A DNA stretch of 41,083 bases from Lachnospiraceae bacterium. GTDB taxonomy: Bacteria > Bacillota > Clostridia > Lachnospirales > Lachnospiraceae. The translations under genes and the position numbers were made by a program. This document shows, in pieces, positions 7,083 through 24,782 of the stretch (position 1 is the first letter of the stretch; every line of letters begins with the position of its first letter). The stretch lies in NCBI GenBank assembly GCA_015057835.1, contig SVDL01000005.1, positions 26,076 to 67,158 on the forward strand, written 5' to 3'. Below the pieces are notes generated by a model. The model saw nothing but the letters and a program-made list of their open reading frames with translations. It ran no database searches and was not told the origin of the DNA.

Positions 7083-8267
7083 TCAGAACACCAGCGTATC
7101 GACCTGCGGCAGCAACTCCTCGAGGTGTTTTTTGTAGCACTCGATCTGCTTCCGGCCGGTCTCGGTCTCAAAGCCGTTCCTGCGGATGAGGCGGCGCATG
7201 AGGCGCGTGTAGCCGATGATCATGGCTTTTTTCTCGATTTCACGGATCGCTGTGTCATCGACGCCATCGAAGTAGAGGCGGAGGCTCTTTTCCCAGATCT
7301 CGCCCTCTGTATTGTAATCAATGCCGAGGAATTCGGCTGCATTTTCGGGATCCAGCTCGTGGAAGCCGCGGTAGGCGTTGAACATGCTGGCGAACTCAAA
7401 AACGGGGTGGCCGTGGCAGAGCGTATCCATGTCGATGAGAATGCTTTCACCATTGACGTACATGACGTTTTTGAGGTGATAATCCCCGTGGAGCATGCGG
7501 TTGTCCTCCGGGACAGCCGCCACGAGGTCATGGAGCTTTTTGGCGTGCTCTTCCGGCAGATAGTCTTTCAGGAAATCCGCCCAGTTCAGAGCGACCGCTT
7601 TCATGTCCGGCATGGAATCGGGCTTCACGATCGTGGAGTGGATGGTCTTCAGCAGGGAAACACTGCATTCCACTATCTGGTCGACACTCATTTTGCCCGA
7701 GATCAGCTGCTTGGCGAGGCTGCCCGCGTCGAGCAGTTCGAAGACGGAGCCGAATCCGCCGCCCTTGATCTTGACGACGTCATAGGAGATCGCCGTCGGC
7801 ACGCCGAGGATAAATGCGGTCCTTGCCAGCTCCCGCTCTTTGCGGATATCTTCAAGCGCCTCGGGATTGAGGTACTGCTTGACGATAGTGTCGCGGTCAA
7901 TGCGGAAGACTTTGCCGTTGGCGCCCTGACCGATGACCTCGCAGCCTTCCACATTGATGACGCGGAATGCTTTGTGGATCTCGATCATTTCCGTAAATCC
8001 GGTCATGGAAAATATCTCATAGACTGCCGAGTTGACCTCGGTAATGACCGTATTGCTCTTCTTTTTCTTGATCCGGAGAATGACGCGGAGCCCGGCGCTG
8101 GAGATATACTGCAGGTCTTTGCAGTCAATAACCACCGAAGAAAATGCATTTTCCGCAAAAACTTTCTCCAGTACTTTGTCCACCTCACCGGAATTGGCGG
8201 AGTCGATCCGGCCTTTCAGCTGGAGGTTCAGTGTGTCATTTGATACGCTGTAAGCTATATTTTCCAT
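7083..8267 (-). CDS. STAS domain fused to APH/choline-kinase-like phosphotransferase
   Basis: 394 residues. Residues 1-100 are a STAS anti-anti-sigma domain with the phosphoacceptor signature ISSAGLR (Ser56/Ser57). Residues about 108-394 form a kinase of the aminoglycoside phosphotransferase fold: glycine-rich GQGANGKVFR (113-122), Lys130, catalytic loop HGDYHLKN (260-267, Asp262, Asn267) and metal-binding DMD (279-281). All key residues are present, so it is probably active. Its substrate is unknown. Similar kinases occur as clostridial and Fibrobacter paralogous families. The start overlaps the stop of the upstream HD gene in TAATG, indicating translational coupling. I infer that the STAS part places a kinase under control of, or in competition with, the RsbW-like protein encoded two genes upstream. 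Confidence 0.87.
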   Translation of the reverse strand: MENIAYSVSNDTLNLQLKGRIDSANSGEVDKVLEKVFAENAFSSVVIDCKDLQYISSAGLRVILRIKKKKSNTVITEVNSAVYEIFSMTGFTEMIEIHKAFRVINVEGCEVIGQGANGKVFRIDRDTIVKQYLNPEALEDIRKERELARTAFILGVPTAISYDVVKIKGGGFGSVFELLDAGSLAKQLISGKMSVDQIVECSVSLLKTIHSTIVKPDSMPDMKAVALNWADFLKDYLPEEHAKKLHDLVAAVPEDNRMLHGDYHLKNVMYVNGESILIDMDTLCHGHPVFEFASMFNAYRGFHELDPENAAEFLGIDYNTEGEIWEKSLRLYFDGVDDTAIREIEKKAMIIGYTRLMRRLIRRNGFETETGRKQIECYKKHLEELLPQVDTLVF

Positions 8268-8833
8268 TAATCTATCCCTTTAAAAATTGTGCTTACGTAT
8301 TGATGGTACTCCTGCCATACGCTGGTATTTCTCAGCTCGTCCGTCAGTTCATCAATGGTGCGGTAATACCAGGCCTGCTCTGCGGGATCTTTCTGGTGAA
8401 AGCTTTCCCAGATCTTATTTCCGATAATGCGCCAGCCGCGGTAGAACGAGCGCATGTTCGAGAGCTTGTCCGCGAGCCACAGGATCCGGACGCCGGGGTC
8501 CTCCGCATTCCGGAGCATCTGCAGCGATTCTGATTTGCGGATCTTCCAGCTCTCTTCCGGCGGCATTTCCGGGCGCTTGTCCTCGGTCTCGAAAGCGACC
8601 AGCAGCGCGACGCGCTCCCCGAACTGCTCCCGGATCTGCTCGATCGTCGCGTCCGTGTCCTCTACCGTATCGTGGAGAATGGCCGCTGCGAGGACCTCTT
8701 CGTCGGAGGTAATGGTTCCCACGATGGTCGCCACCTCAAACGGGTGCAGGATGTAAGGCGTGCTCTCTCTTTTGCGGTACATGCCGCTGTGCGCTTTTAC
8801 GGCAAATGCAATAGCTTCATCAAAGTTTGTCAT
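8267..8833 (-). CDS. HD-domain alarmone hydrolase (SpoT/Mesh1-like small alarmone hydrolase)
   Basis: 188 residues, the length of single-domain (p)ppGpp hydrolases. The SpoT/Mesh1 HD signature is intact: His30 in ILHPFEVA, His54-Asp55 with Glu58-Asp59 in AAILHDTVEDT, and Asp122 in WLADKLSNMR. Synthetase, TGS and ACT domains of full-length Rel proteins are absent. The expected reaction is removal of the 3'-pyrophosphate from ppGpp or a related nucleotide; other nucleotide substrates are possible. It has a GAGGAA ribosome site and lies 21 bp after the RsbW-like gene and directly before the STAS-kinase gene. The context links alarmone turnover to a partner-switch regulator. Confidence 0.87.
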   Translation of the reverse strand: MTNFDEAIAFAVKAHSGMYRKRESTPYILHPFEVATIVGTITSDEEVLAAAILHDTVEDTDATIEQIREQFGERVALLVAFETEDKRPEMPPEESWKIRKSESLQMLRNAEDPGVRILWLADKLSNMRSFYRGWRIIGNKIWESFHQKDPAEQAWYYRTIDELTDELRNTSVWQEYHQYVSTIFKGID

Positions 8834-8854
8834 ATATTCCTCAGTTATTTCAAG

Positions 8855-9265
8855 TTATATCAGTCTCTTTCGGATGTGCAGGATATTTTTCCCGTCTTTG
8901 TACTCGTAGGAAATATCATCCATCGTCTTCTTCACAAGGAAAATGCCGAGGCCCCCGATCTCCCGCTCCTCCGCGGAGAGCGTCGTGTCCGGCTCCTCCG
9001 CCGTCAGCGGATCATAGGGCTTCCCGCTGTCGATAAATGTGATCACCGCGGTCCTCTGTTCTTCCTCAAAGCCGAACTGCACCGTTGCGCTCCCTGTTTC
9101 GGGCGCGTAGGCGTAGTGGGCGATATTTCCGAACAGCTCGTCGATCGCGATCTCGATCTGCATCTGGACTCTCATGGGGCAGTCCAGTGCCTCCAGCTCC
9201 CTGTCGACAAATTCCGTCACAGCCTGAATATTTTCCGTTGTTGCTTGGACGGTCAGTTCTTTCAC
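8855..9265 (-). CDS. RsbW/SpoIIAB-like anti-sigma factor serine kinase
   Basis: 136 residues, GTG start behind AGAAGGAATAAAACC. It is a GHKL (HATPase_c) domain with the N-box EIAIDELFGNIAHYAY (Glu43, Asn47), the G1 box FIDSGKPYDP (Asp79, Gly81) and the G2 box GGLGIFLVKK (104-113). Family members bind ATP, phosphorylate the serine of a cognate STAS protein and often sequester a sigma factor. Here the likely partners are the STAS protein just upstream (9365-9661) and perhaps the STAS domain of the fusion downstream. No sigma factor gene or PP2C phosphatase is in the window, so the output is unknown. Confidence 0.92.
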   Translation of the reverse strand: MKELTVQATTENIQAVTEFVDRELEALDCPMRVQMQIEIAIDELFGNIAHYAYAPETGSATVQFGFEEEQRTAVITFIDSGKPYDPLTAEEPDTTLSAEEREIGGLGIFLVKKTMDDISYEYKDGKNILHIRKRLI

Positions 9266-11312: not shown

Positions 11313-12806
11313 TCACGATTCCCTGACTCCGCTCAGTGTCTGCTGAATAATGGATTCCATGAATTCCTCCGGAATCGCGCCGGGAACATACCCAAAGATA
11401 TTGCCTTCTTTGTCGATCATGAAAGTCGTAGGATACGCCGTAATGCCATACTGCATGAGAAGTTCCGCTTCCGTATCCATCATGACAGGATATGTGTAGC
11501 CGTTCTCTTCCAGAAAAGCTTTTACGCCGGCTTCGTCCTGTTCATTTCCGTAACCGGGAAATGCGACCGCTATGACCGCCACGTCCCCGCTGTCCTTATA
11601 CTTCTCGTAGATCTTCTGAATGTCCGGCATTTCCGAGCGGCAGGGCGGGCACCAGGTGGCCCAGAAATTGAGAAATACGGCTTTTCCCTTGTAATCCGAG
11701 AGAGAATGGATCTCTCCGTACTGATCCATCAGAGTGAAATCCGGGGCGGGGAAAACTTGTTCATCTGCGGCGTTTTCCGAAGTATTGTGTTCTACGTCGC
11801 TTTCCGAAGCATTTTGTTCTAAGTCGCTTTCCGAAGCATTTTGTTCTGTGTCACTTTCCGAAGCATTCTCTTCAACATCTTCGATTACCGGACTTGAATC
11901 GGATTTTTCATCTTCCTCTGCTGCGGACTGTGCCGGGGTTTCAGAGTCTTCCGCCTCAGCAGCCGCTTCCTTCTCCTCAATCTCCGATTCCGCAGCCGCA
12001 GGCTGTACCTGGACTTCAGAGTCTTCCGCCCCGGCACCGGTTTCCTGCACCTCATTCTCCGCAGCCGCCGGCTGCGCCTGATTCCCGGCCAGCACGCCCG
12101 TCACTTTGTTCATCGTACCTGTCAGCATCAGGATTCCCATGACCACGAGCAGCGCGCCGCCGATCTTTGCGGTGTAGCGCACGACTCCCCGGTGCTTCCG
12201 GAACAGGCGGAGCAATCCGTCCGCAAAGATTCCGACTGCAATGAAGGGAATGACAAACCCGAGCGTGTAAACTCCAATCAGAAGAAATCCCGCAGCTTTA
12301 GAAGAGGAAGAGGCCGCCATGAGCAGGACGCTTGTCAGCGTCGGCCCGACGCAGGGCGTCCAGGCGAAGCTGAAGACAAATCCCATAAGAAGCGCCGTGA
12401 CCGGCGACATCGCCATTTTTTCAAGCGGCAGATGGATACGTTTTTCTTTATTGAGCGTTTTTGACGTCCCGAAAAGACCGAGCTGATACAGTCCGAAAAG
12501 GATGACGATCACGCCGCCGATGCGGGCGAGGAGGTATTTCCGGGTGCCGAAAAAGGAGCCGACCGCAGTCATTCCCAGCGCGAGAACAAAGAAGGCAAAT
12601 CCGATCCCGATCACAAAGAAAAGTGTGTTGATGAGCGTCCGCACCCGTTCTTTCGGGGTGAAATTTTCTCCCTCATCCGTATAGCCGCCCGACAGGTACC
12701 CGAGGTAAAGCGGGATCAGAGGAAGAACGCAGGGTGAGAAAAAGCTCAGCAGTCCCTGCGCAAATACAGTCAGTATGGAGATGTTGAAATCAGGCTGGAA
12801 TCCCAT
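11313..12806 (-). CDS. CcdA/DsbD-like membrane thiol transporter fused to TlpA/ResA thioredoxin
   Basis: 497 residues. Residues 1-235 are a CcdA-type six-helix domain with Cys26 (FFSPCVLPL) and Cys152 (AWTPCVGPT), the pair that carries electrons across the membrane. Residues about 240-350 are a Glu/Ser/Ala-rich linker with four 9-residue repeats (QNASESDLE type). Residues 350-497 are a TlpA/ResA-like thioredoxin with the active site WATWCPPC (Cys386, Cys389) and cis-proline in AYPTTF. Predicted role: bring reducing power outside and reduce disulfides in surface proteins, or help cytochrome maturation. Such fusions are known in Firmicutes. It starts 44 bp after the kinase-nuclease gene with GGGAGAG before the ATG, and no terminator is visible in between, so it may be read through from the TIR/kinase operon. 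Confidence 0.9.
   Translation of the reverse strand: MGFQPDFNISILTVFAQGLLSFFSPCVLPLIPLYLGYLSGGYTDEGENFTPKERVRTLINTLFFVIGIGFAFFVLALGMTAVGSFFGTRKYLLARIGGVIVILFGLYQLGLFGTSKTLNKEKRIHLPLEKMAMSPVTALLMGFVFSFAWTPCVGPTLTSVLLMAASSSSKAAGFLLIGVYTLGFVIPFIAVGIFADGLLRLFRKHRGVVRYTAKIGGALLVVMGILMLTGTMNKVTGVLAGNQAQPAAAENEVQETGAGAEDSEVQVQPAAAESEIEEKEAAAEAEDSETPAQSAAEEDEKSDSSPVIEDVEENASESDTEQNASESDLEQNASESDVEHNTSENAADEQVFPAPDFTLMDQYGEIHSLSDYKGKAVFLNFWATWCPPCRSEMPDIQKIYEKYKDSGDVAVIAVAFPGYGNEQDEAGVKAFLEENGYTYPVMMDTEAELLMQYGITAYPTTFMIDKEGNIFGYVPGAIPEEFMESIIQQTLSGVRES
11774..11876 (-). repeat. 27-bp tandem repeats in the linker of the CcdA-TlpA gene
   Basis: Four copies of a unit containing TTTCCGAAG begin at 11774, 11801, 11828 and 11855, with an exact 27-bp period. 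They encode the NASESD-type 9-residue repeats of the hydrophilic linker. Confidence 0.9.
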
Positions 12807-12850: not shown

Positions 12851-15800
12851 TTACTCCCCGGCAAGAATCTCCGTGAGGTACCCCGCGAGATCCTCGTCGA
12901 TCATGCTTCTGTCGATAAAGCGGACGTTCATGCCGCGGCTCCGCTGCAGCAGCGCCGCCGGCCGCTTTTTGCTGGATTCATCAAAGGCGTTGTTGCTGCA
13001 AACGATGACTGCGGTGCCCTCGATCCCGAAATAGTCCGCGAAGAACCGGATCTCTTCCAGGTATTCGTTCTTCGGCATGCTCTGCTTGCAGGAAATGAAG
13101 TAAGTCTTCATGTTCTTTGTGCAGACAATATCGATCTCATTGTTGATGGCGCCGCCGAGGACGGATTCCTCCTCCGTCTTGGCGTTCCAGGTAAATGTCA
13201 CATTACTCCGCACATCGTCGACCGGCACATGCTGGAAAATCGTGTGGTAGACATAGGCTTCAAGGACATTGCCTTCCTTGAGAAGACACTTCCTTACGGA
13301 AATATCGTCGACCTCGAACCGCACAAAACACTCCCCGGTCTTGTAATCCTGCGTGATCATCGGCTCTCCGCCGGATGCTGCTGAAAATGCCCCATCGCCG
13401 GTGCTGCCGGTTCCACCGGGCATCGGCTGCGAGTCTCCGCCCACCGGGCGGACCGCATTTCCCGCCTGATCCAGGGCTTCCAGAACGCAGCGAATCGCCT
13501 CGCTCTTCAGAACGCTCCTTCCGCTGAGATCCTTCACGGCTTCATCCCGGAAGGAGAACTGCACGAGGCAGGTCCGGTCATAGACAAAATGCTGCATGGA
13601 GTCCACAGGTCTGCCGGTGACCGGCTCCCGGAAGGACTGCATGGCCTCATATTCATGCTGATAAGGTTCTTTCTCCGCCCGAAGAAGCAGTTCTTCAAGA
13701 ATTGTCCCGGTCTCCGGGTAATCCGTATCAAAGCGGACGGTTCCGCGGCGGTTCTCCGCCGGCTCCGTGTATCCCGGCCGGATCAGGCCGTTCTGCTTCC
13801 ATTCGCGCAGCACTCTCCGGATCCCCGTATCGGTCAGAAGTCTGCCCGGGACCGTCACGGTCTCCATGGTGTACAGCGCTTTTTGATCCGCATCCGGCGC
13901 TTTTCCGGCTCCGTCTTCTTTCCCTTGCGACGAGCCTCCGGTTCCTCCGTTTTTCCCCTGCGTCGCGCCTCCGGCTCCGCCGACCTTAATAAACAGCCCG
14001 CGCTCCGCCTGCTCCATCTCTTTGATGAAAATTCTCCAGTAGAACGGCTTCACGCTGCTGTACGCCTGCCAGAGCTGTTTATAATACGGCCGCAGATCCG
14101 CCATTGTGCCGATGCTGTCAGGATCCTCGCTGAACGGATTGGAGCCGAACAGCCGCAGAGTCTCCTCGACAGTGAGATGTCGTTTCAGGGTATAGAGCGG
14201 AATCTCCGCCCCGTATCCGAAATCCGTGAGCTTTCCGCCGTCGAACCGGGTGACGGGCATTGTCTGGAACACGCTGCGCCGCGCGTACCGGAATGCCTCC
14301 GCCTCGTCGATTCCCGTGATATCGAGGACCGCCCGCTTGCTTCTCGCGTCCGTACGCACCTCGTCCGTCCGGAAAATGACAGAGACCTTTGTCCGAAGAT
14401 GCCTCTCCTCCCGCAGGAAACGCTCTATTTCTTCCGCCTGTCTCAAAACACGTTTCTGTGCAGATTCCGCCGTTTCCCTGTCCTCTGCAAAAATCCTGCC
14501 GCCCGCAGCCATACCGCCGCCCCGCGGCGCACCCGGCCTCTCCTCCGCTATAAGGATCAGCTCCTCGGGCTCAATGAGGATGCTGCTCACGACGTTCTGC
14601 CACATTTTCACGGCGAGTGGTTTGTAGATCCGCCTGAGAGGCGGAATGATCAGCATCGGAAGTCCGCGGACCATCGCCTCGTCGGACATTTTATAGTCGA
14701 CGTACCGGTTCCGGAAAATGACAGGGCGCATCTCCTCCCCGATCTTATCGAGATCTTCGGTGAGCTCCAGCCGGCACGCCGTTCTGCGGTGATCCAGCTC
14801 CTCCACTCTTTCCCGGAACGAGCGCATTTCGTCGGCAAATACCACATTGATATTTGCCTCCCCGCTCAGCATCCGGACGATCACGGCGCGCAGCCGTTCC
14901 GCCGCGCGGACCCATTCGCCCCGCAGCTCGAATTTGGAAATATCCGCGAGCAGCTCCTCCGTGAGGTAATCCGCGTCCAGCCGCTTCGCCTTCCGGTCGC
15001 ACAGCGCGTGGATGCGCAGCGACTGCCGGTCCAGCTCGTCCAGATCGGCGCTGACCTTCTTCCGGATCCAGTTTTTGTGCGGCAGATCCCGCAGCACGAT
15101 CCCCGTATCCGGCGAGGAAGAGCAGATCAGCGGGTGGAGTTTTCTCTTGCCGTCCCGGTGATCATTTCCCCCGTTGTAAGCGTATTCGGCAAATTCCTCC
15201 TCCGTCGGCACCCGGTACCCCGCCGTGATCATATAGGAGCTCCAGCGGCGATGCTCAAGATAGAGAAGTTTTTTCAGCAGTTTCTCCGCCTCCGGCGTGC
15301 CGGAGAGCACGCGGCGGTAATACTGAAATGCCGCATTCGGCGCCTTCGGATCGATCCCCGCCGAGACAAGCTTCGCGTCGACGGAGAGCGCCGCGTGGAC
15401 CGAAGATTCCATGTTGTATTTGAGATCTCTTTGGAAGGACTGCCGGATCTCCTGCGCGGACGCCCTCTCGTTCCGGTCCTTTACGTAGAACCGGTGGATC
15501 TTCTCCGCCCGCTCGCGGATCTCCCGGCCGTAGGTTTTTCCTCCCTCGCCGGTGCCGGGGCTCGATCCCACTGAGGCAAAAACGACCCATCGCGCGAGGT
15601 GTTCGAGGGCATTTTCCGCCTCTCTCTCATCGGTGCCGGCGCCTTCCAGCGCGGCGCGGATCCCCTTCGTGATGCGCGCGCGGGTATCTTCGGTGAAACC
15701 GGCATTTCTCGTGCCCGGCGCCTCGTCCGGGTCGGCGTATCCGACAAAAACAGGATAAAACCGCCCGTTTCCGCAGTCCGGCGTCAGCGCGTTGTTGGCC

Positions 15801-17593
15801 GCTACCGCCTGCAGGAAACTGACTGCCAGTTCTTTATTTCTTGAAAATGCGCCGGCTCTTCCGTCTGCCTTCACCGCTTCCGCGGAAAATGCGCCGGCCC
15901 GCTCATTTTTCTTCCCCGTCTCCGCGGAAAATGCGGCCGCCTCTTCCCCCTCCTCATCCGCAAATACGATCCAGGAAGGAAGAAGCGTGTAGTCCTCCTC
16001 CTTCGACCAGCGCATGAAAAGGTCTTCCGCGTCGGAAGCAGGTTTCCACTCTTCGAGGAAAATATACGCGAGCGGCTCCGTCACGATCTCCGGATCCGAA
16101 CCGACGGGACGGCCGTCCCATTCCCGGACCTCTTCGCCGTTCAGGATAAATTCCGCCGCGGCCATAAGCTGCGGCATGACGCGGAACAGTTCCGTCAGTT
16201 TTCTTTCCGGATCGGGGACCGCCCACCGGATGACCATGGTGGTGTCCGCCATCTGTGTCGTCAGGAAATACCGGAAAAACCGCATGGCGGTATCCCCATC
16301 GCCGGCAAGACCTAGGTCGAGCATGTAGTGCTTTTCCCGGCGGCCGGCTGCGCCTGCGGCGCTGTTTTCCGCCTGAGGATCTGCGTCCTGACCGGCCGCG
16401 GCACCGGCGGCATTTCCGCCGTTCTCCGCGTGTCTCTCCTCCCGGCGGTACTGCCAGAGCGGATACCGGTCGAGAACGTACGCGATCTCAAGAATGCGGT
16501 CCACTTCCTGTTTCGCGCGGCGGGCGACCTTTTTCGGGCGGAGCATCTCCTCCCGGAGCGCCTTCAGGTCCTCCAGCAGTTCGTGTGCATTTCTGTAGCG
16601 GCTGCGCAGATCGGGAGCGACGCATTTAGCCAGAATTCCGAGCAGGATCTTCTGCTCTCCTTCGTCGATCTGACCGCGGAATTCGTTGTTCAGCACTTCC
16701 GCGAACGCAGTCCGCCAGTCTGCACTGCCCGCCGCCTTTGACCCGGGTTCTGCCCGTTCTTCCCTGTCCGCCATATGTTCTCCGTCTGCAGAGCGGGACC
16801 CGTCTCCGGATTCCGCGGACGGCCAGCACCCCGTGAGGGACGCGATCAGCATGGATCCGAAAGAATAGATATCCGCCGCCGGGGTCAGGAACAGGTATTT
16901 GTTTCTCTGAAAATCCTGCATTTCCCGCAATTCCGGAGCGAGGATCCGCGGCGTCGCGCGGAGTTCTTTTACATTTTCGAGCTGTGACATGTCCACCGCC
17001 GCGTCGAAGTCAAAGAGCATGGCGCGGGCGCCGTCCGCCCAGAGGACATTTTCCGGCTTGAAATCCATATAAAGAATGCCGCGGTCATGGAGAGCGGCCA
17101 TCGCGCCTGCCGCGGAGACCGCGATATCAAGAAATTCTCTGGCGCTCTGCGGGAAATACCGGTCCAGCGTGTCGCCGTTCTCCCTCTGATAGAGAACGTA
17201 CATCGTGCTTCCGGAAAAATACCGCCGGTACGGCGTCACGACATGGCTACGCAGCGCGTCTTCATTGGAAAGCGTGCGCTGCAGCTCGTACGCCCGGGCG
17301 AAATGCTCCGCCATCGCGCGCAGCTGCCGGCTCTCCTCAAATCCGTCGATCGCAAGCTCCAGTCCGTCCATCGTGACGGATCCCTCCGGGACGTCCGCCG
17401 GATAAAACTGCTTGAGGAGCATGCGGTGGGACTCATTCTCCGACATTTCCACGGAGACGAGATAACACATGCACGAGGCTCCCTCCCCGGACAGGAGTTC
17501 CGCATTTGAGATCCGGTATATATTTTCCCTTCCCGAGCGGTCCAGGAGCTTCATCGGAAATTCCGACGGAAGAATTTTACGTCTGTTATTCAT
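12851..17593 (-). CDS. Protein kinase - Rossmann/RyR-like - CARF-like - Card1/DUF1887-like nuclease fusion
   Basis: 1580 residues. (1) 30-345: Hanks-type protein kinase: Lys61 in LLKQF, catalytic loop YMDFKPEN (Asp177, Asn182), DFD 195-197 in place of DFG, APE 219-221, DIYSFG 241-246. (2) 421-620: Rossmann-like LGLAGDGDTAMRFF, then WIVFA and RFYPVFVG strands. (3) 775-825: RyR-like LEHRRWSSYMITAGY and KLHPL. (4) About 1005-1100: possible CARF-like fold ending in LDITG, an inference. (5) 1240-1290: possible winged helix. (6) 1438-1575: PD-(D/E)xK nuclease of Card1/Can2/DUF1887 type, with GNVLEAYVY (Glu1445), NEID (Asp1488) and YFISCK (Lys1503). Linkers at 553-585 and 1205-1230 are tandem repeats. 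The start overlaps the upstream stop by 8 bp. I infer a ligand-gated nuclease effector with a kinase switch. Confidence 0.8.
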   Translation of the reverse strand: MNNRRKILPSEFPMKLLDRSGRENIYRISNAELLSGEGASCMCYLVSVEMSENESHRMLLKQFYPADVPEGSVTMDGLELAIDGFEESRQLRAMAEHFARAYELQRTLSNEDALRSHVVTPYRRYFSGSTMYVLYQRENGDTLDRYFPQSAREFLDIAVSAAGAMAALHDRGILYMDFKPENVLWADGARAMLFDFDAAVDMSQLENVKELRATPRILAPELREMQDFQRNKYLFLTPAADIYSFGSMLIASLTGCWPSAESGDGSRSADGEHMADREERAEPGSKAAGSADWRTAFAEVLNNEFRGQIDEGEQKILLGILAKCVAPDLRSRYRNAHELLEDLKALREEMLRPKKVARRAKQEVDRILEIAYVLDRYPLWQYRREERHAENGGNAAGAAAGQDADPQAENSAAGAAGRREKHYMLDLGLAGDGDTAMRFFRYFLTTQMADTTMVIRWAVPDPERKLTELFRVMPQLMAAAEFILNGEEVREWDGRPVGSDPEIVTEPLAYIFLEEWKPASDAEDLFMRWSKEEDYTLLPSWIVFADEEGEEAAAFSAETGKKNERAGAFSAEAVKADGRAGAFSRNKELAVSFLQAVAANNALTPDCGNGRFYPVFVGYADPDEAPGTRNAGFTEDTRARITKGIRAALEGAGTDEREAENALEHLARWVVFASVGSSPGTGEGGKTYGREIRERAEKIHRFYVKDRNERASAQEIRQSFQRDLKYNMESSVHAALSVDAKLVSAGIDPKAPNAAFQYYRRVLSGTPEAEKLLKKLLYLEHRRWSSYMITAGYRVPTEEEFAEYAYNGGNDHRDGKRKLHPLICSSSPDTGIVLRDLPHKNWIRKKVSADLDELDRQSLRIHALCDRKAKRLDADYLTEELLADISKFELRGEWVRAAERLRAVIVRMLSGEANINVVFADEMRSFRERVEELDHRRTACRLELTEDLDKIGEEMRPVIFRNRYVDYKMSDEAMVRGLPMLIIPPLRRIYKPLAVKMWQNVVSSILIEPEELILIAEERPGAPRGGGMAAGGRIFAEDRETAESAQKRVLRQAEEIERFLREERHLRTKVSVIFRTDEVRTDARSKRAVLDITGIDEAEAFRYARRSVFQTMPVTRFDGGKLTDFGYGAEIPLYTLKRHLTVEETLRLFGSNPFSEDPDSIGTMADLRPYYKQLWQAYSSVKPFYWRIFIKEMEQAERGLFIKVGGAGGATQGKNGGTGGSSQGKEDGAGKAPDADQKALYTMETVTVPGRLLTDTGIRRVLREWKQNGLIRPGYTEPAENRRGTVRFDTDYPETGTILEELLLRAEKEPYQHEYEAMQSFREPVTGRPVDSMQHFVYDRTCLVQFSFRDEAVKDLSGRSVLKSEAIRCVLEALDQAGNAVRPVGGDSQPMPGGTGSTGDGAFSAASGGEPMITQDYKTGECFVRFEVDDISVRKCLLKEGNVLEAYVYHTIFQHVPVDDVRSNVTFTWNAKTEEESVLGGAINNEIDIVCTKNMKTYFISCKQSMPKNEYLEEIRFFADYFGIEGTAVIVCSNNAFDESSKKRPAALLQRSRGMNVRFIDRSMIDEDLAGYLTEILAGE
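13921..13985 (-). repeat. 33-bp repeat encoding a Gly-rich linker in the kinase-nuclease gene
   Basis: Two imperfect copies begin at 13921 (TCCCTTGCGAC) and 13954 (TCCCCTGCGTC), a 33-bp period. They encode Gly/Ser/Gln-rich linker residues about 1207-1230, just before the winged-helix and nuclease part. Confidence 0.7.
15843..15934 (-). repeat. 42-bp tandem repeats in the kinase-nuclease gene
   Basis: GAAAATGC recurs at 15843, 15885 and 15927, an exact 42-bp period (14 residues). The units encode an RAGAFSAE-type linker (residues 553-585) inserted in the Rossmann-like module, between the WIVFA strand and the following helix. Confidence 0.85.
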
Positions 17594-19733
17594 GAAGAAT
17601 CATCCCCCACAGATTCCGGAAGGCGTTGAGCGGCTCATCGGTGGAAGCCGCGAGATAGCAGAGCATCGCGTCATACGGATCCGCGCGGTAGATCCCGTAG
17701 AATCCGCATTCGCCGAGGATCCTGTCCGCGGTCGCGATGAAAGCGCCGAGCCACTGCCGGGCGGTCGCGTCGTACGCCGCCTCGCCGATGTCCTCGAATT
17801 GCCGCTGCGCCGCGAAGTTCAGGAATACGAGCGTCAGGATATCCTCGCGGGTCACCTCGATCCGGCGCCGCTTTTCCAGCGCGTAGATCCGGGAGGCCGA
17901 GAGCTTGGTCTCCGGGCGGAAAATGCGCTCGCGCAGCAGTCTCACATGCTCCGGATCGAGCATCATATCGCCGGACAGCTCCTCTTTCGCGTGCGAATAG
18001 TAGAGATATTTCACAGTAATGCCCTGTTCGCCGGATTCCTCCGCCTCCGGATCCGCGCTCTTTTCGATCCTTGCGGTCTCCCGCTCGAATTTGCCGAAGC
18101 CGATCTTCTTGTTTCCGACGGAGATCTCGACCGGGCAGATCCACGCCTCGCCCTCCGCCGTCAGAAATACGCCTTTTTTCAGCTCGTCCTTCGTGACCTC
18201 AAAATCGGACACCGCGGTGAGTTCCGCCGGGCAGTCCGCCGCCTTCACCGTGCGGTACGCGTCGCCGGTCTCCTCCTGCAGGAAAATGCTCCCCTCCGCG
18301 ACGGACGTCCCGTAAAAGACGGGAAGCTCCAGATTCCCCTCAAGGAATGTTTTTTTGCCGACTTTTTTCGGTTTAAAACTGCTGCTCGGGCGGATCCCGT
18401 GGAACCGCATGTCCGCGGAGTTAAATACCGCCGCTTTCGTCACCGCGGCATCTCCCGCCTCCGTCTCGCGCTCGCAGCGCACGGCGATTTTGAGGGTCGT
18501 TTCCTGATCCCCCGGGAGAATATAATCGCTGTTCTCATTTTCCCTGAAAATGAAATCGTGCTCTTTATACCGGATCTTCACGCCCTTCGGCAGCACAAAG
18601 GTCTGCCCCGGCAGATATCGGATCTGCACGCTTCCGGAGGCTGTTTTTCCGGAAGATGCGCCGCTCTCTCCGGCGCTTTCCCGGCCCGCTTTCCCGGAAG
18701 TCTTCTTCTTCGCCGTCCGGTCGGATCCGTCTCCGTCGTCTGCGCCGAAGTCTTCCTCGCCGTACGGATCATCCTCATACGGTGCCTCAAGCCGCTTCTT
18801 CTCAAGGACCGCTTCTTTCTCCATGGCGCCGCCCTCGGCGAAGGACTCGATATCCTCCTCCGCCACCTCGCGGAAACTCTTCCACAGCTCGAAGGCCTTC
18901 TGGGTCGCGGTGCGGACGTGGTCGCCCTTCGCGTTCTGGGTCCTTCTGTATTCGCGGAGCAGTGCCCGCAGCGCTTCCGGCGCTTCCTCCTCCGGGTGGA
19001 CGAGCCATGCGCGGATCGATTCCTCGCCGCCCTGCGCCGCCGTCATCATCCGGTCCGTATAGGTGCGGATGCTCTCCGTCGCGCTGCTCTCCGAGAGTGT
19101 TTTCTTTTCTTTGGTATTTTCCTTTTTATAGGCGTCCGCGATGGCGAGGAAGGCCTGCTGGCGGACGGCGGCATTTTCCGCTCCCGTAAAGCGGAAGACG
19201 ATATAAGTGAACAGTTCTCTCTCGTTCCAGAGATTGAGACCGGCCCTGCGGCAGACTTTCCGCAGGAAATCATTCAGAACGCCGAAGCTCATGCCGAGGC
19301 CGAAGGCCAGATGGATCAGATCCGTGCTCTTCGCGCGGTCCGCCGCGAGGATCTCTTCCAGTTCCTCTCTGGTCATCCAGCGCCCGCTGTACGGGAACAG
19401 CATCCCGGGCACTTTCTTTTTCATTTTCGGGACGCATCCGTTCGCCGGGAGATCCTGCCAGGCAAGTTCCGCTGCTCTCGCAGGATCCTCTCCCTTCTCC
19501 CCGTGTTTTTCGAGGATATATTTCACGATATAAACACGAAAAGGAACCGACCGCATACTGTCGATCAGTTCCGTTGCACTCATTTCCTCACTGAGGTCCG
19601 TCCAGTCGAGATACGGCTCCTCGAAGCCCTCGTCGGCGTCCTCTCCCGGGAGGAACGCGTCGATCCCCTTCTCGATAAACCCGGTCATCCCGGACCGCAC
19701 TTCATCATAACCCCTGCGCGTGATTTTTCTCAT
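17586..19733 (-). CDS. Conserved-looking protein of unknown function, 715 residues, in the TIR/kinase operon
   Basis: I do not recognise this protein. Residues 1-295 appear helical, with a motif-like RWMTREELEEIL (about 127-138). Residues about 300-365 are an acidic and Ser/Gly-rich linker. Residues about 365-575 look beta-rich, with many short Val/Ile/Phe strands. Residues 600-715 are helical again, with SASRIYALEKRRRIEVTRE followed by DRILGECGFYGIYRADPYDAML near the C-terminus. No catalytic motif, membrane segment or signal peptide is visible. The helical end domains around a beta core suggest an adaptor or scaffold. It starts 39 bp after the RyR membrane protein and overlaps the kinase gene in ATGAATAA, so it is likely translated with both and may bind the kinase fusion. 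Confidence 0.82.
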   Translation of the reverse strand: MRKITRRGYDEVRSGMTGFIEKGIDAFLPGEDADEGFEEPYLDWTDLSEEMSATELIDSMRSVPFRVYIVKYILEKHGEKGEDPARAAELAWQDLPANGCVPKMKKKVPGMLFPYSGRWMTREELEEILAADRAKSTDLIHLAFGLGMSFGVLNDFLRKVCRRAGLNLWNERELFTYIVFRFTGAENAAVRQQAFLAIADAYKKENTKEKKTLSESSATESIRTYTDRMMTAAQGGEESIRAWLVHPEEEAPEALRALLREYRRTQNAKGDHVRTATQKAFELWKSFREVAEEDIESFAEGGAMEKEAVLEKKRLEAPYEDDPYGEEDFGADDGDGSDRTAKKKTSGKAGRESAGESGASSGKTASGSVQIRYLPGQTFVLPKGVKIRYKEHDFIFRENENSDYILPGDQETTLKIAVRCERETEAGDAAVTKAAVFNSADMRFHGIRPSSSFKPKKVGKKTFLEGNLELPVFYGTSVAEGSIFLQEETGDAYRTVKAADCPAELTAVSDFEVTKDELKKGVFLTAEGEAWICPVEISVGNKKIGFGKFERETARIEKSADPEAEESGEQGITVKYLYYSHAKEELSGDMMLDPEHVRLLRERIFRPETKLSASRIYALEKRRRIEVTREDILTLVFLNFAAQRQFEDIGEAAYDATARQWLGAFIATADRILGECGFYGIYRADPYDAMLCYLAASTDEPLNAFRNLWGMILHE

Positions 19734-19772
19734 ACCGGCACCTCACTTTGGCGTAAATTTCCGCGTTCCGCC

Positions 19773-21782
19773 TCAATGTCCCGCGTTTTTCTTCATCTGC
19801 TCCTCGTCCTTCGCCTCAAAGCGGCGCAGCTCCTTATGCAGCTTTGCCCGGCTGTCGGAGCGGTCGCCGTGGAGATATCCGTTGGTCCTCATATAGGCGT
19901 TCCAGCGCATCTGCTCGAGCTCAAGCTCCTGCTCCGTGCTGATCGCCGGATTCGCGTGCACCGCGATCTTGTGCAGTGATTTCGCGATGGAGGAATCCCG
20001 GAAATAGGAGAAGCGCTCGTATTTGATGTAATTTTCTCTCCTCTGACGGTCGAACTGCTCCTCGATCGCCGCGCGCTTCGCGGCGTCATTTCCGGCGCTC
20101 CGGAGCTGTTTTTCGCGCTCCGCTTCATCCCATTCCACGTGGTAGCGGAACGCGTCATCCTCTGTCTGCTTCGGGTAGACAGCGTCATACCCGTACCGCT
20201 CGGACAGCTTGCCGATCGCCCGGACATGATACGGGATCTCTTTGTAATTGATGAGGCCTTTTCCGCTGTTGAGCTTTTCCGCCTTCTCATTGTCGAGAAC
20301 GATGGCGAAGATCCTCGGCAGCTCCGTCCCCTCCGGCTTCCCGGACGCCGTGTTGACGTCGTTCAGCTGGTCGAAGATCCGGCGCATCGCCAGCGCCTGC
20401 CCGATGTTGGCGTTGTCGTCGCCCATCGAAGTCAGGATCCAGGTCGTCCGGCGGAGCCTCCGGCCGGTCTCATCGTCTTTGGGCGTGCCGTCCGCGTTCA
20501 GGAACATGTCGCGGAACGCCCCGCTGCCGGCGTTGATGCCGGAAAAAGTGCGCACGCTGTAGAAATCCTCCCCCGGAACGCGTTCGTCGTTGTGCAGAAG
20601 GACCCCCGGCATTTTCCAGGAGATCAGGGATTCCGCGTCCGGCTTCTCCGGATCGCTCCCGTCGGCAATATCGACGATATTGATCTCGAGACGGCACCCG
20701 GCCATCTGCCCGAACCAGAGCAGCGTCTTAAAGAATTCCGTGCCGTACCGGCCGAAGCCGATGATGAGCGCCGAGAGGACATTTTCCCCGTTCTCATCCT
20801 TCCGGATGCACTCAAACAGCTCTTTCTGCGCCACAATGGACCAGGCGAGCTGCTTCTGCACATTGACAAGACGGAGTTTCATGATCTGTTTGTTAAATTC
20901 CACCTCGCTGAGCTTCGTCCTCTCCGCTTCTTTTCTCGCCAGGGAGATCTGCGGCGTCCAGTCGACGGACTCGATAATGCTCTCGTCCTCCTCGCTGTCA
21001 GAGAAGACGAAGATCTTTTTGTTGAACAGGCCCATGGAGGCCTCGGCGATGGTGACCGCCTGGCTCATGTTCTCTCCCTGTTCCTCGCCGATCAGGAAAT
21101 ATTCGACCTGCCGGTCGTTCTTTCTGGATATGAGGTCTTCAACATCGTCCCGGACGCAGAACGCGCGGATCCGCTCGGCTTCCTTGCGCATTTCGTAACT
21201 GTCCTCCCCGTCCTCCGGGTAGACGTCGGCAAATACGATCAGGGCGTCCGGATTTTTCTCACGGACGTCCGCCGCCAGCGTGAGAGCGGTGTGATTGAGT
21301 TCGGAAAAATAAAAGACCGGTTTGCGGGACTGCCATGCGATCCGCATTTTCGTGGTGAAATTCCGGAAGAAGGAAAGAATAAATCCGACGGTCATGACCG
21401 GCGCGAGTACGTACAGCACAGCGCCGTAGAAGGTGTACCAGAGGCGGAACGCCTGCGGCAGATGGACCGTGGCCGCGTTCATCATGTCCAGTTCGCCGTC
21501 GAGAATGAAGCACCGCATCGCGGTGTGAATGGAAAGGAACAGCGCGCGGATCCCCCAGAAGTTGAAATCTTCCGCATAGGACTGCGCGGAGACCGGGAAA
21601 AGGATGATGGTCAGCGCGAGAAAAACTCCCGCTGCAAAGCAATAAAACCCCGACAGATATTTGCCGAGGAAATCCGATCGTTTTCTCCAGATATTGAGTC
21701 CCAGCGCGACGGCCAGGAAAACAAGGGGAGATAGGATCGCACAGGTAATAAAGATGCGGAGGCTGTCCGGCATGATCGTCAC
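19773..21782 (-). CDS. Membrane protein with TrkA-N/RCK-like Rossmann domains and C-terminal RyR-like domain
   Basis: 669 residues from a GTG; ATG at 21773 is an alternative. Membrane helices lie at about 9-30, 42-64 and 118-139, perhaps also 74-92. A degenerate Rossmann domain follows (155-275: VFYFSELNHTALTLAADV, ALIVFADVY). A second has the nucleotide-binding loop IIGFGRYGTEFF (341-351) and the strands WILTSMGDDNAN (448-459) and RIFAIVLDN (490-498), as in TrkA-N/RCK domains that gate K+ transport with NAD(H) or nucleotides. Residues 592-605 carry YFRDSSIAKSLHK. Residues 620-655 resemble the RyR domain (ELEQMRWNAYMRTNGY, AKLHKEL). No pore motif is seen. Probably a ligand-sensing membrane component. 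It lies 47 bp after the small GDY gene. The same Rossmann-RyR arrangement is in the kinase fusion. Confidence 0.78.
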   Translation of the reverse strand: MTIMPDSLRIFITCAILSPLVFLAVALGLNIWRKRSDFLGKYLSGFYCFAAGVFLALTIILFPVSAQSYAEDFNFWGIRALFLSIHTAMRCFILDGELDMMNAATVHLPQAFRLWYTFYGAVLYVLAPVMTVGFILSFFRNFTTKMRIAWQSRKPVFYFSELNHTALTLAADVREKNPDALIVFADVYPEDGEDSYEMRKEAERIRAFCVRDDVEDLISRKNDRQVEYFLIGEEQGENMSQAVTIAEASMGLFNKKIFVFSDSEEDESIIESVDWTPQISLARKEAERTKLSEVEFNKQIMKLRLVNVQKQLAWSIVAQKELFECIRKDENGENVLSALIIGFGRYGTEFFKTLLWFGQMAGCRLEINIVDIADGSDPEKPDAESLISWKMPGVLLHNDERVPGEDFYSVRTFSGINAGSGAFRDMFLNADGTPKDDETGRRLRRTTWILTSMGDDNANIGQALAMRRIFDQLNDVNTASGKPEGTELPRIFAIVLDNEKAEKLNSGKGLINYKEIPYHVRAIGKLSERYGYDAVYPKQTEDDAFRYHVEWDEAEREKQLRSAGNDAAKRAAIEEQFDRQRRENYIKYERFSYFRDSSIAKSLHKIAVHANPAISTEQELELEQMRWNAYMRTNGYLHGDRSDSRAKLHKELRRFEAKDEEQMKKNAGH

Positions 21783-21829
21783 ACTTTCCTGTCGGGCCCG
21801 GCCCCGGGCAGCTTACCCGGGAGGTATCC

Positions 21830-22369
21830 CTATGTCTGTTTATTCTGTTGTTTTTTTACTATTTCATAAGTATTGTCAAATATTCTTCTGGCAACGAAAT
21901 TGAACTCTCTTTTGGAGTAATCGTAAATGACCAGCACGGCGTCCTTCGGAGCGGACAGCTTCGTGCCCCACATATTCGCCTGGAAGAAATGTTCCGGATC
22001 CGTCCCGCAAAGGCTCAGCCGTCCTTCGTCGATCAGCGTCCGGACCGGTCCGTCGTCGGGGTCGCCCGCCTGCCAGGCGGTCAGCGTAATGGGCAGCTGT
22101 TCGTAGAGGTCGCCTTCTATATGGCGGTGATTTTTCTCAAACCATTCTTTACTATTGGGATAGGGCATGCCGCCCTCATCGATCTTGAAATAATCACCCG
22201 CTTTTACGATCTCTCCGGTACCGGAGCAGCTCTCTCTCGAAAAGATCTCGTATTCGCTTCCGCGCTTTACGATCAGTCCTCTCCGGATCATTTCCTGCTC
22301 CTGTCCCGACCCTTCCCCGAGACGGTACGCTCTGACGGTGCTCCCCTTTTTTTTCATAACTGTGATCAT
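21830..22369 (-). CDS. Small GDY-motif protein (possibly PGDYG-like), unknown function
   Basis: 179 residues, with GGGGAGGAAA before the ATG. The core reads VKAGDYFKIDEGGMPYPNSKEWFEKNH, split here into KAGDYFKIDEGG and PYPNSKEWFEKNH at about residues 56-81. It resembles the small PGDYG family (a Gly-Asp-Tyr turn followed by a proline-bearing strand and an aromatic-rich helix); the match is from memory and uncertain. Later segments are QLPITLTAWQAGD, a possible ligand loop, and DAVLVIYDYSKREFNFV. The N-terminus has a short KRGSEYEIFSRESC strand pair. No membrane segment or catalytic motif is seen. It lies between the TIR-LRR gene (118 bp gap) and the RyR membrane protein gene. Perhaps a small sensor or regulator for the system. 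Confidence 0.75.
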   Translation of the reverse strand: MITVMKKKGSTVRAYRLGEGSGQEQEMIRRGLIVKRGSEYEIFSRESCSGTGEIVKAGDYFKIDEGGMPYPNSKEWFEKNHRHIEGDLYEQLPITLTAWQAGDPDDGPVRTLIDEGRLSLCGTDPEHFFQANMWGTKLSAPKDAVLVIYDYSKREFNFVARRIFDNTYEIVKKQQNKQT

Positions 22370-22487
22370 AGGATTATTTCCTCCCCGCAGTGTCTCCCTT
22401 TTCTGCCGCGGCCGCCTTCCCGGCAGTTCCGCTTATACGGAGCGGATCTCCTGTCCGGAAACCCTTTTCCTTTTCTCACAGTATACC

Positions 22488-24668
22488 TTATTCAGATTCT
22501 TCGTTTTTTGACTCATATTCTTCCGTTGTCATGTGCGTCAGCTTCGAGCCGACCCCGTCCTCAAAGGCGACCTGCTGATCGAGAGGCATATCAAGGATCG
22601 TGACATAGTCGTACTGCAGCGCCTTGACAGCTTCGGGGGTCATGCTGTCGACCCAGTCGAGGACGATCGTGCGTCCGCTCGTTTTTGCGACAGATTCCGG
22701 AACATCATGAAATGCGTTTCCATGGAGATCAAGATAGTGGTAGTTCAGTTCGGCATTGATCGCCACGGACGAAATGATCCCGCAGTTGCTGAGATCATAA
22801 TCGATCTGTTTATCCCTCGGCCAGTTCGTGCCGGCGACATCCGCAGCGCCGTTAATGGGATTATCGGAAAAATCGATCCATGTAAGATGGGTCAGTTCTT
22901 TGAGTCCCGAGATACCGTTCAGGAGGTTCTCCGAGGCATCCAGCGTTTCCAGCGCCTCCATTCCTGACAGCTCCCGGAGCGTTTCCACGGCGTTGTTTCG
23001 GATCAGCAGCACTTTCACGGAGGCACATTTCTTAAGAGGCGTCAGACTGGAAACCAGATTCGAAGTAAGATCGATCTCCTCCAGTGTCTCCGCCGATTTT
23101 CCCAGAATATCGATGGTCGTGATCTCATTTTCCCCGAGATAGACCCTCTTAAGGACGGTCATATTTGCGAGAGGATCGATCTCCGAAATGCCGCAGCCCG
23201 ACGCGTTCAGCGTCTCCATCCGGAGACACGCCTCGATACCCTCCAGGGATTCCAGCGGATTGTTCGAGACATTCAGATTGGACAGCCCCGTGCAGTTTTT
23301 CAGCGCTTCGAGCGACGTGACCTCATTGTCCGCGATATTCAGCGTGCCGAGCTTCACAAGATCGGCAACCGGCGTCAGGTCGGAAATGCCGTTGCCCGCA
23401 GCCTCGAGGATCGTGATCTTTTCCTTTCCGGCAAACGCGGCGAGATCGCTGATCCCCGTGTTATTGATCCTGATGCTGTAAAGACTGTCCGGAATGGCCG
23501 GAAACACGTCTTTCGATCCCACGCCGGTTCCTGCCTGCGGATTATCGCTGAGATCCAGCGTCGAGAAAGAGGTCAGCTCCGAAATATTTGTCGTAATGGA
23601 CTTCATCTGCTCCGTAGTAAGTCCGCAGCCGATAATGATAAGGCGCGTCAGGTTTTCATTCAGGACCGGCGACAGATCCGCCGCGGAGATCGTGCAGTTT
23701 TCCATCGTGACCGAAGTCAGCTTTTCAAAAATCGCGAACCGCTGCAGGTCTTCTTCCGTGACCTCGGCATCCTTCAGGTAAATGCTGCTGTCCGTCTTCA
23801 GGACCTCTTTCCCGGAGATGATAAATGTATTGGCGATGCGCTCTTTTTCCTTCTGCGCGGATCTTATGGCGTTCACTGCAAAGAACCCGATCACAAGAGC
23901 TGCGATGACCGCCCCCGCGATCAGCAGAATGCGGCCGGCAGAGCCCTTTTTCTTTTTTCCGGCTGTCGCTGCTCCGGCCTTTGCGCCGGGGATGTTCTGC
24001 TGTGCACCTGGGTTCTGCTGTACTCCGCCGCCCGGCACGCCATATCCCGGCGTCCCATTTCCCGGTACTCCATATCCCGGTGTTCCATTTCCCGGCACAC
24101 CGGCATATCCCTGAGGCACTGCGCCTGCATTTGCCGGAATAGTCCCGGCCGGTGCTCCGGTATTGGCCGCGGGTGCATTTCCCGCAGCGGCTGCCGCTTT
24201 GGCGGCATTTTCCAGCTCCGCGCGAAGCTGTGCTGCTCTGGCTTCCTCGGCGAGCGCGTCGTCTCTCTCTTTGATCAGCGTCTTGATGACACGGACCATG
24301 GAGGCAAATGCCTTATCCCGGTTCTTCCACGCCTCATAACGCTGCACATTGGAGAGATAGAAGCTGAATTCATCTTTCAGAGCACAGTTTTCGATGGAGA
24401 AAGGAAGAATGACCTTGTTCGCGTTGATCGCCTGATCAAGCTCTCTCGGCACCCACTTCGAAGCCTGCGCATTATTGGACAGGATCAGGACAAAAGCGAC
24501 ACATTCCCGGATCGCCTTCGGGATCTGGACGGCGTAGCTCGAGCCGCCCGGAATCGAGCCCGGCGCAAGCCAGCAGGAGATTCCCTGCTCTTCCAGCCGG
24601 TCCCGTACCCACATCGCTTCATTCAGTTCTTCTGCTTTGTAGCTGATAAATACGTCTTTTTCGTTCAT
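22488..24668 (-). CDS. TIR-transmembrane-LRR protein (Toll-like architecture in reverse order)
   Basis: 726 residues from ATG 24668, chosen for AGGCGG close upstream. Residues 1-135 are a TIR domain: KDVFISYKAEE, ISCWLAPGSIPGGSSY, VAFVLILSNNAQASKWVPREL. Glu76 in WVPRELDQA matches the position of the catalytic glutamate of NAD-cleaving TIR domains. A Glu/Ala coiled segment (136-165) and an Ala/Pro/Gly linker with VPGNGTPGYG repeats follow. KKKKGSAGR then precedes one membrane helix (about 247-266). Residues 300-690 hold SDS22/internalin-like leucine-rich repeats such as LTRLIIIGCGL, LGTLNIADNEV and LSNLNVSNNPL. By the positive-inside rule TIR is cytoplasmic and the LRRs are outside. No secretion signal other than the helix. 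First gene of the operon. Expected output on activation: NAD+ cleavage or a TIR-made signal. Confidence 0.88.
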   Translation of the reverse strand: MNEKDVFISYKAEELNEAMWVRDRLEEQGISCWLAPGSIPGGSSYAVQIPKAIRECVAFVLILSNNAQASKWVPRELDQAINANKVILPFSIENCALKDEFSFYLSNVQRYEAWKNRDKAFASMVRVIKTLIKERDDALAEEARAAQLRAELENAAKAAAAAGNAPAANTGAPAGTIPANAGAVPQGYAGVPGNGTPGYGVPGNGTPGYGVPGGGVQQNPGAQQNIPGAKAGAATAGKKKKGSAGRILLIAGAVIAALVIGFFAVNAIRSAQKEKERIANTFIISGKEVLKTDSSIYLKDAEVTEEDLQRFAIFEKLTSVTMENCTISAADLSPVLNENLTRLIIIGCGLTTEQMKSITTNISELTSFSTLDLSDNPQAGTGVGSKDVFPAIPDSLYSIRINNTGISDLAAFAGKEKITILEAAGNGISDLTPVADLVKLGTLNIADNEVTSLEALKNCTGLSNLNVSNNPLESLEGIEACLRMETLNASGCGISEIDPLANMTVLKRVYLGENEITTIDILGKSAETLEEIDLTSNLVSSLTPLKKCASVKVLLIRNNAVETLRELSGMEALETLDASENLLNGISGLKELTHLTWIDFSDNPINGAADVAGTNWPRDKQIDYDLSNCGIISSVAINAELNYHYLDLHGNAFHDVPESVAKTSGRTIVLDWVDSMTPEAVKALQYDYVTILDMPLDQQVAFEDGVGSKLTHMTTEEYESKNEESE
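24031..24111 (-). repeat. 30-bp tandem repeats in the TIR-LRR linker
   Basis: Units starting CCCGGCACGCC (24031), CCCGGTACTCC (24061) and a partial CCCGGCACACC (24091) have a 30-bp period. They encode VPGNGTPGYG decapeptides between the TIR domain and the membrane helix. Confidence 0.88.
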
Positions 24669-24773
24669 GATGCCGCCTGTCTTTCTTTGTCCGTTTCCAT
24701 TCTGTATCCGGATCACAGATCTGCTGCTGTCCGTCCGTTAAAACGTGTTTTACGACCCGGACACAGCAAATTG

Positions 24774-24782
24774 ATTATAGCA
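24774..24782 (-). promoter_or_regulatory. Extended -10 promoter of the TIR/RyR/kinase operon
   Basis: Minus-strand TGCTATAAT at 24782-24774 is a perfect extended -10 box about 105 bases before the TIR start codon. The -35 region (GTTAATC) is weak. It is the same extended -10 nonamer as at the partner-switch operon. Confidence 0.7.

Follow-up and report, generated by a model that had tools for sequence, protein, structure and literature searches.

A TIR, RyR and CARF-nuclease gene set of a Lachnospiraceae bacterium suggests an undescribed signalling system

Five adjacent genes of a gut bacterium of the Lachnospiraceae, together with related sets in other bacteria, suggest by their sequences an undescribed signalling system that is probably antiviral. 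The genes lie on the minus strand at positions 12851–24716 of the window (the whole 41,083-nucleotide stretch of DNA analysed, part of the 2.66-Mb draft genome G000), where all five open reading frames were confirmed. They encode a TIR protein with leucine-rich repeats (gene 1), a 'GDY' protein (gene 2), a membrane protein with Rossmann and RyR domains (gene 3), a protein that goes with kinases (gene 4) and a kinase-Rossmann-RyR-CARF-nuclease protein (gene 5). We judge the case for a composite system that signals from TIR to RyR, with a probable role in defence, to be about evenly balanced, and an immune function of the operon appears plausible. The operon would function in the manner of TIR-based signalling systems, its effectors being a Card1-type protein and a membrane protein, with a credible chance of something more.

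Operon layout and the TIR-linked proteins

As the earlier note had described, the five genes share a strand and are closely spaced: the distances from gene 1 to gene 4 are 118, 47 and 39 nt, genes 4 and 5 overlap by 8 nt, and no terminator-like stem was found on the minus strand inside the intergenic gaps. The extended -10 promoter placed ahead of them is present as the element TGCTATAAT (24774..24782, minus strand), but the window contains two occurrences of its pattern, with 0.8 expected, and we therefore regard it as weak evidence. The arrangement of genes nevertheless goes beyond chance, because the same set recurs in other genomes, namely in L079, L080 and, for the most part, L081; the proposal that the genes act as one unit thus holds in the sense of a unit of inheritance. 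A DsbD/thioredoxin-like gene (Pfam; 11313–12806) begins 44 nt past the last stop of the operon, so the transcript may continue beyond gene 5, and the upstream neighbour is a HAD phosphatase (Pfam). Phage-defence neighbours, for which a search had been proposed, did not emerge: the 12 of 22 called flank genes that were searched in Pfam, including both neighbours, carry ordinary families and none of a defence type. Elsewhere in the window, consecutive STAS-APH, HD and HATPase_c_2 genes (7083–9265) resemble a partner-switching/anti-sigma module, and a 2205-aa open frame on the minus strand (3–6617) runs off the window start.

In Pfam, TIR_2, LRR_4 and Pkinase scored above their own cut-offs, Card1_endonuc scored below its own, and genes 2, 3 and 4 gave no match above cut-off. 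By profile, relatives or fold, all of the domains that had been read from the letters (TIR, LRR, kinase, Rossmann, RyR, CARF and nuclease) were confirmed. Gene 1 (22488..24716, minus strand) encodes a TIR domain, a Gly/Pro/Ala linker, a TM helix and leucine-rich repeats, as supported by Pfam, TM prediction and orthologues in L079 and L081. The protein measures 742 aa from a GTG and 726 aa from the ATG at 24668, which is the probable start and has AGGCGG ahead of it. The TIR domain (24306..24653, minus strand; TIR_2 3.4e-20) carries the catalytic-type Glu at aa 92 from the GTG, that is, Glu76 from the ATG, and 35 of the 37 TIR rows aligned have E in this column; Glu76 had been named correctly, as had D1488 and K1503 of gene 5. 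The repeats (22677..23789, minus strand; LRR_4 3.7e-22) are predicted to be extracellular: a single TM helix is predicted at aa 263–281, and with the TIR domain in the cytoplasm the LRR would therefore lie outside the cell, a topology that agrees with the one proposed before. The domains partnered with TIR differ among relatives and comprise LRR, a WD40-type propeller, MORN, Sel1 and TPR/NB-ARC.

Gene 2 (21830..22369, minus strand) encodes the 179-aa GDY protein, a TIR partner that is fused to TIR in L030 (own profile). Its predicted-structure model has a pLDDT of 84.9 and found no convincing PDB match. Against the viral predicted structures of BFVD, six rows reached E ≤ 0.001, yet with rmsd above 10 Å; many small phage proteins align across ~80 residues, and among the 50 matches listed 4 are named PGDYG, at E-values of 0.014–0.13. 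Pfam gave no PGDYG match. The two halves of the protein are weakly alike (score 33 versus a shuffle mean of 23, with 9 of 200 shuffles reaching 33), and GDY is perhaps a doubled PGDYG-like domain.

The RyR domains and the kinase-nuclease

Gene 3 (19773..21782, minus strand) encodes a 669-aa membrane protein with three TM helices, a Rossmann domain whose GxGxxG motif reads GFGRYG, and a RyR domain, on the basis of TM prediction, motif and iterated profile. Unlike the RCK/TrkA-N gating modules of CASTOR and Slo, it has no ion-channel match in Pfam that would indicate a pore domain, and it ends in a C-terminal RyR domain (19788..20021, minus strand). Gene 5 has a RyR domain of its own at 14648..15487 (minus strand), detected by iterated profile and alignment. 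PF02026 itself matched neither gene 3 nor gene 5 in Pfam, nor anything in the window's own genome at E ≤ 10. Iterated profiles join both domains to L035, which has a PF02026 match of 4.8e-5 (below cut-off), and to a 91-aa protein of L091, which Pfam matches at 5.9e-32; a profile of the gene 5 RyR region run against the PDB reached RyR1 at no better than 0.0048. The kinship of the window's domains to RyR is one that runs via sequence intermediates.

A 2026 preprint describes phage RyR domains that bind or cleave 2'/3'cADPR through the RyDEP ligand residues H75, W78, H100 and D117 (PMC13232231). Three of these positions (H75, W78 and H100) could be compared here, D117 falling outside the alignment. 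They are occupied by H781, W784 and H820 in gene 5, and by H-W-H in all 34 RyR-nuclease rows, with gene 5 and redundant rows included; of the 37 membrane-protein RyR rows, 34 have H at the first position and all have W and H at the other two. Gene 3 of the window has Q624, W627 and H649, hence Q at the catalytic H75 position, and the same holds for L079. All 21 short RyR proteins keep the H75 and W78 positions, and 20 of them carry T at the H100 position. Conservation at H75 and W78 is to some extent circular, since genomes were scanned with the pattern [LI]EH[RL][RS]W, which does not include H100.

Several further RyR proteins came to light in the same searches. The standalone short RyR protein at L091:12488–12763 (Pfam RyR 5.9e-32) matches a RyR1 construct at 2e-60, very near the animal ryanodine-receptor repeats, and other standalone short proteins (≤130 aa) occur near kinase-nuclease or membrane-protein genes in L092, L101, L103, L109, L110, L112, L123, L124 and others; it is the phosphate-contacting His that is replaced by T in 20 of 21 of the short proteins. 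At L035:7745–11191 and L037:7635–11150, tandem genes encode a Rossmann-RyR protein and then a second protein, which in L035 combines an Ion_trans_2 pore (6.5e-13) with RyR (4.8e-5), and these tandem proteins are candidate RyR-gated bacterial ion channels. A gene 3 relative (27.9%) lies at 16806–18449 of MT835673.1 (L060), an unverified 'Bacteriophage sp.' faecal contig that is unannotated and may be bacterial DNA. At L027:4866–8810, a protein starting KHIFISSTFRDM (DUF4062-like by eye) adjoins a membrane RyR protein; a 2026 paper reports that DUF4062 is a TIR-like NADase (PMC13174449).

Gene 5 (12851..17593, minus strand; Pfam, iterated profiles and fold) encodes 1580 aa arranged as kinase, Rossmann/RCK-like domain (15524..16330, minus strand), RyR, CARF and PD-(D/E)xK nuclease. 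The Hanks-type kinase domain (16811..17491, minus strand; Pkinase 3.7e-17) has K61, D177, N182, D195 and E221, columns that are each conserved in 34–41 of 42 rows. The C-terminal module (12854..14647, minus strand) is of Can2/Card1 type: the Pfam match to Card1_endonuc is below cut-off (3e-4), and a fold match gives a complete CARF plus PD-(D/E)xK fold. That fold match is independent of the 7 standalone Card1-like rows that, among the 30 of profile A5, help this profile reach Can2. What had been called 'kinase-CARF-like-nuclease' can thus be sharpened to an entire Can2/Card1 module joined to a Rossmann-RyR pair of its own. The nuclease motif NExD...(E/S)CK is present as N1485-E-I-D1488...S1501-C-K1503, and 26 of the 31 aligned rows retain both D1488 and K1503. 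Two of the four window-type members, however, have a broken motif: L080 has lost the K and L081 the D. The nuclease therefore cannot be an obligatory effector in every member. The CARF DITG motif (LDITG, 1090–1094) is retained in the window, L079 and L080, and the T-G is missing from all 12 of the other kinase-type rows in the alignment, which left out L081 and some others. Loss of the CARF T-G motif while the RyR positions stay suggests that RyR became the receptor. The Cas10-palm profile (PF22335) gave no match in the window's own genome, which is 91% complete; it scored above cut-off in 8 of 27 searched genomes and gave no match at E ≤ 0.001 in 18 of 27.

Gene 4 (17586..19733, minus strand) encodes a 715-aa protein without a TM helix that had been listed as unknown. 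From its neighbourhood it can now be described as a kinase partner, lying ≤10 kb from 17 of 18 kinase-type RyR-nuclease genes. Its relatives also adjoin kinase genes that are not RyR-nucleases, and gene 4 therefore goes with the kinase, not with RyR. Eight such kinases were searched in Pfam, and 3 have NB-ARC above cut-off, 3 more have weaker AAA/NB-ARC matches and several have TPR. The kinase-led proteins with NB-ARC/AAA matches, several with TPR in addition, adjoin gene 4 relatives in L063, L064, L067, L069, L074 and L078; NB-ARC is above cut-off in L063, L064 and L078, a separate kinase-STAND pair.

Related loci and gene association

A scan of genome contigs with the part of gene 5 behind the kinase gave 66 loci. 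Before counting we left out the duplicate loci L061, L068, L075 and L077, the fragmentary locus L120 and, for identities of ≥90%, five of the 34 anchors, which yielded 29 non-redundant RyR-CARF-nuclease proteins; L093 and L100 share a contig and L102 and L103 share a genome, so that the 29 are not fully independent. Gene maps of the relatives fall into four layouts. Layout A, the window type, comprises the window, L079, L080 and L081, with all five components in the first three and four in L081. L079 (Lachnospiraceae UBA1251) keeps the five genes in the order of the window, in line with the expectation of conserved gene order, with 89% identity for gene 3 and 74% for gene 4; its TIR-LRR reads as two overlapping ORFs, the second of which contains unknown residues. 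The order is GDY, TIR-WD40, gene 4, gene 5, gene 3 in L080 (Eubacteriaceae CHKCI004) and gene 3, TIR-LRR, gene 4, gene 5 in L081. Layout B has gene 4, PP2C and gene 5, often with a short RyR protein, and was found in Clostridia, Synergistaceae and others, and layout C has GDY with a kinase-less Rossmann-RyR-CARF-nuclease. In layout D a separate Card1-like nuclease (in L123, PADLOC CARF_PDDEXK 2.6e-31) lies beside gene-3-like proteins, often with a short RyR protein. Loci with a Card1-like CARF nuclease near one or two Rossmann-RyR genes, were seen in L117, L118, L123–L126, L129, L139, L143 and L144; several add a short RyR protein and a protein of ~1150 aa (AAA-AAA-peptidase M41 in L124), and they are possibly a second system.

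Within 10 kb, the 18 kinase-bearing RyR-nucleases have gene 4 in 17 cases, PP2C in 12, TIR in 9, a short RyR protein in 7, a gene-3-like protein in 4 and GDY in 3; the 11 kinase-less ones have TIR in 6 and GDY in 3. A TIR gene is thus found ≤10 kb from 15 of the 29 RyR-CARF-nuclease loci (0.412 Mb of flank) versus 0.67 expected from the 118 TIR_2 matches in ~72 Mb of 26 of these loci's genomes, or 0.11 expected from 79 TIR_2 in ~290 Mb of 100 family genomes. The nearby TIR is above the Pfam cut-off in 14 of these 15 loci and below it in L110. At E ≤ 0.001, a TIR_2 match occurs in 26 of 26 RyR-nuclease genomes versus 44 of 100 genomes of the family sample. No TIR lies within 10 kb of the other 14 loci, some of whose flanks are truncated by the ends of contigs. 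Fusions were also observed, both of GDY with TIR (L030) and of RyR-nuclease with and without kinase. Gene 3 is patchily distributed: at E ≤ 0.001 a match was found in 14 of the 299 genomes of the family, and none in the same-genus genome G209. Near-identical operons in L092, L096 and L097 lie on contigs labelled Anaeroplasma, Christensenella and [Clostridium] spiroforme, pointing to recent transfer or MAG mis-binning.

Proposed pathway, alternatives and significance

In Thoeris, an effector is switched on by a cyclic ADP-ribose signal that comes from the TIR protein ThsB, and the usual receptor domains are SLOG or Macro. Like Thoeris, the operon has a TIR protein (TIR_2 3.4e-20, with the catalytic-type Glu column in gene 1) beside proteins with a putative ADPR-binding domain, and its putative effectors are separate from TIR. 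Unlike Thoeris, it has RyR, together with a kinase, a partner protein and a CARF-nuclease, and its TIR is membrane-anchored with a predicted outside LRR. We do not class it as Thoeris, because no SLOG or Macro receptor domain was found among the matches listed for genes 2–5 (Pfam and PADLOC, the latter covering 25 of 46 families for gene 5), a comparison that divergent copies could escape. Gene 5 resembles Card1/Can2 (DUF1887) in its CARF plus PD-(D/E)xK fold and nuclease motif and differs from the Card1/Can2 of type III CRISPR in having kinase, Rossmann and RyR ahead in the same chain and a genome without a Cas10-palm match; because no Cas10 was found, we do not class it as a CRISPR ancillary nuclease. 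The RyR domains resemble phage RyDEP and standalone PF02026 proteins (PMC13232231) in their matching pocket positions and their link to TIR signalling; RyDEP is, however, a small phage evasion enzyme or sponge, and the RyR of the operon sits on a host membrane protein and a kinase-nuclease, as a putative receptor. A kinase gene beside PP2C, seen in 12 of 18 relatives, recalls the kinase plus PP2C conflict systems of PMC7159879, from which the fusion of the kinase to RyR-CARF-nuclease sets these proteins apart. In the searchable open literature we found nothing joining RyR with CARF, nor a description of the five-gene set.

Taken together, these features may reflect a pathway in which the sensor part of the TIR protein, a swappable repeat, would detect infection or envelope damage, and the triggered TIR would cleave NAD+, yielding ADP-ribose or one of its cyclic isomers. 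This product would be received by the RyR domains of the membrane protein and of the kinase-nuclease. Ligand binding would change the membrane protein, and with it the permeability of the membrane or signalling, and would release the kinase-nuclease, a Card1/Can2-type enzyme that RyR and phosphorylation would govern. The kinase would act on the gene 4 partner, PP2C would reverse this in relatives having one, and the response would end in growth arrest or abortive infection. Against this pathway stand the 12 searched flank genes with no defence-type family, the Q of gene 3 at the catalytic H75 position, the window's RyR domains falling short of PF02026, the broken nuclease motif in L080 and L081, and the 14 of 29 loci with no TIR nearby. 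Our inference that a nucleotide made by TIR is what RyR reads comes from PMC13232231 plus the gene association. Gene association data cannot by themselves identify the ligand, and the main prop for it is that phage RyR domains bind or cleave 2'/3'cADPR to disarm Thoeris (PMC13232231). We tentatively propose, at somewhat short of even probability, a host-side immune pathway in which RyR-type domains receive a TIR-made ADP-ribose signal and a Card1/Can2 nuclease has passed from regulation by the cyclic oligoadenylate of CRISPR to regulation by RyR and kinase/PP2C, in the company of a membrane protein with RyR and an inverted Toll-like sensor with TIR inside and LRR outside.

The same proteins could be read differently. 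RyR and Rossmann domains might respond to ordinary adenine nucleotides or to NAD(H) state, in which case the operon would regulate stress responses or homeostasis under the control of its kinase and would have no immune role. The ordinary Pfam families of the flank genes searched, the GxGxxG of the membrane protein, channel-like RyR proteins such as that of L035 (Ion_trans_2 6.5e-13) and the adenine ligands occupying the RyR3 R12 pocket (PMC13232231) all suit such a regulator, but the strong TIR linkage, the nuclease module and the patchy presence (14/299 genomes) do not, and we hold it to be unlikely while giving it real weight. Distinctly unlikely, in our view, is a TIR acting as a toxic effector by NAD+ depletion with the other four genes merely regulating it: Glu conservation in 35/37 rows, the GDY-TIR fusion in L030 and the broken nuclease motif in L080 and L081 are consistent with this, and it is at odds with the 14 of 29 RyR-nuclease loci without TIR within 10 kb and with the nuclease D and K both kept in 26/31 rows.

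Two further readings concern which domain meets the signal, and in what sense. If RyR domains served to switch the signal off, hydrolysing or soaking up the TIR product as RyDEP does, the kinase-nuclease and the short RyR proteins would be brakes. RyDEP is a 2'/3'cADPR glycosidase and 6 of 8 relatives assayed gave stable complexes with 2'/3'cADPR (PMC13232231), and the H75 and W78 positions are kept in 21/21 short RyR proteins; yet RyR is fused to the nuclease in 34 rows, gene 3 is without the catalytic His, and the H100 position is T in 20/21 short proteins, which leaves this account quite improbable. We consider it very improbable that CARF is the real sensor and gene 5 a type III CRISPR ancillary nuclease answering cyclic oligoadenylate: the full CARF plus nuclease fold, the DITG kept in the window, L079 and L080, and the Cas10-palm matches above cut-off in 8/27 genomes are set against 18/27 genomes, the window's own (91% complete) included, without Cas10-palm at E ≤ 0.001, and against the loss of the CARF T-G motif in 12/12 other kinase-type rows aligned.

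The proposal that RyR domains receive a TIR-made signal bears on recent work showing that RyR domains of phages deal with immune signals made by TIR (PMC13232231). If true, the operon would provide these signals with a receptor in the host, which would help to explain the RyR sponges of phages, and would show a rewiring of CARF nucleases outside CRISPR. It would also bear on an old question, the action of cADPR on animal ryanodine receptors, by way of the RyR domain.
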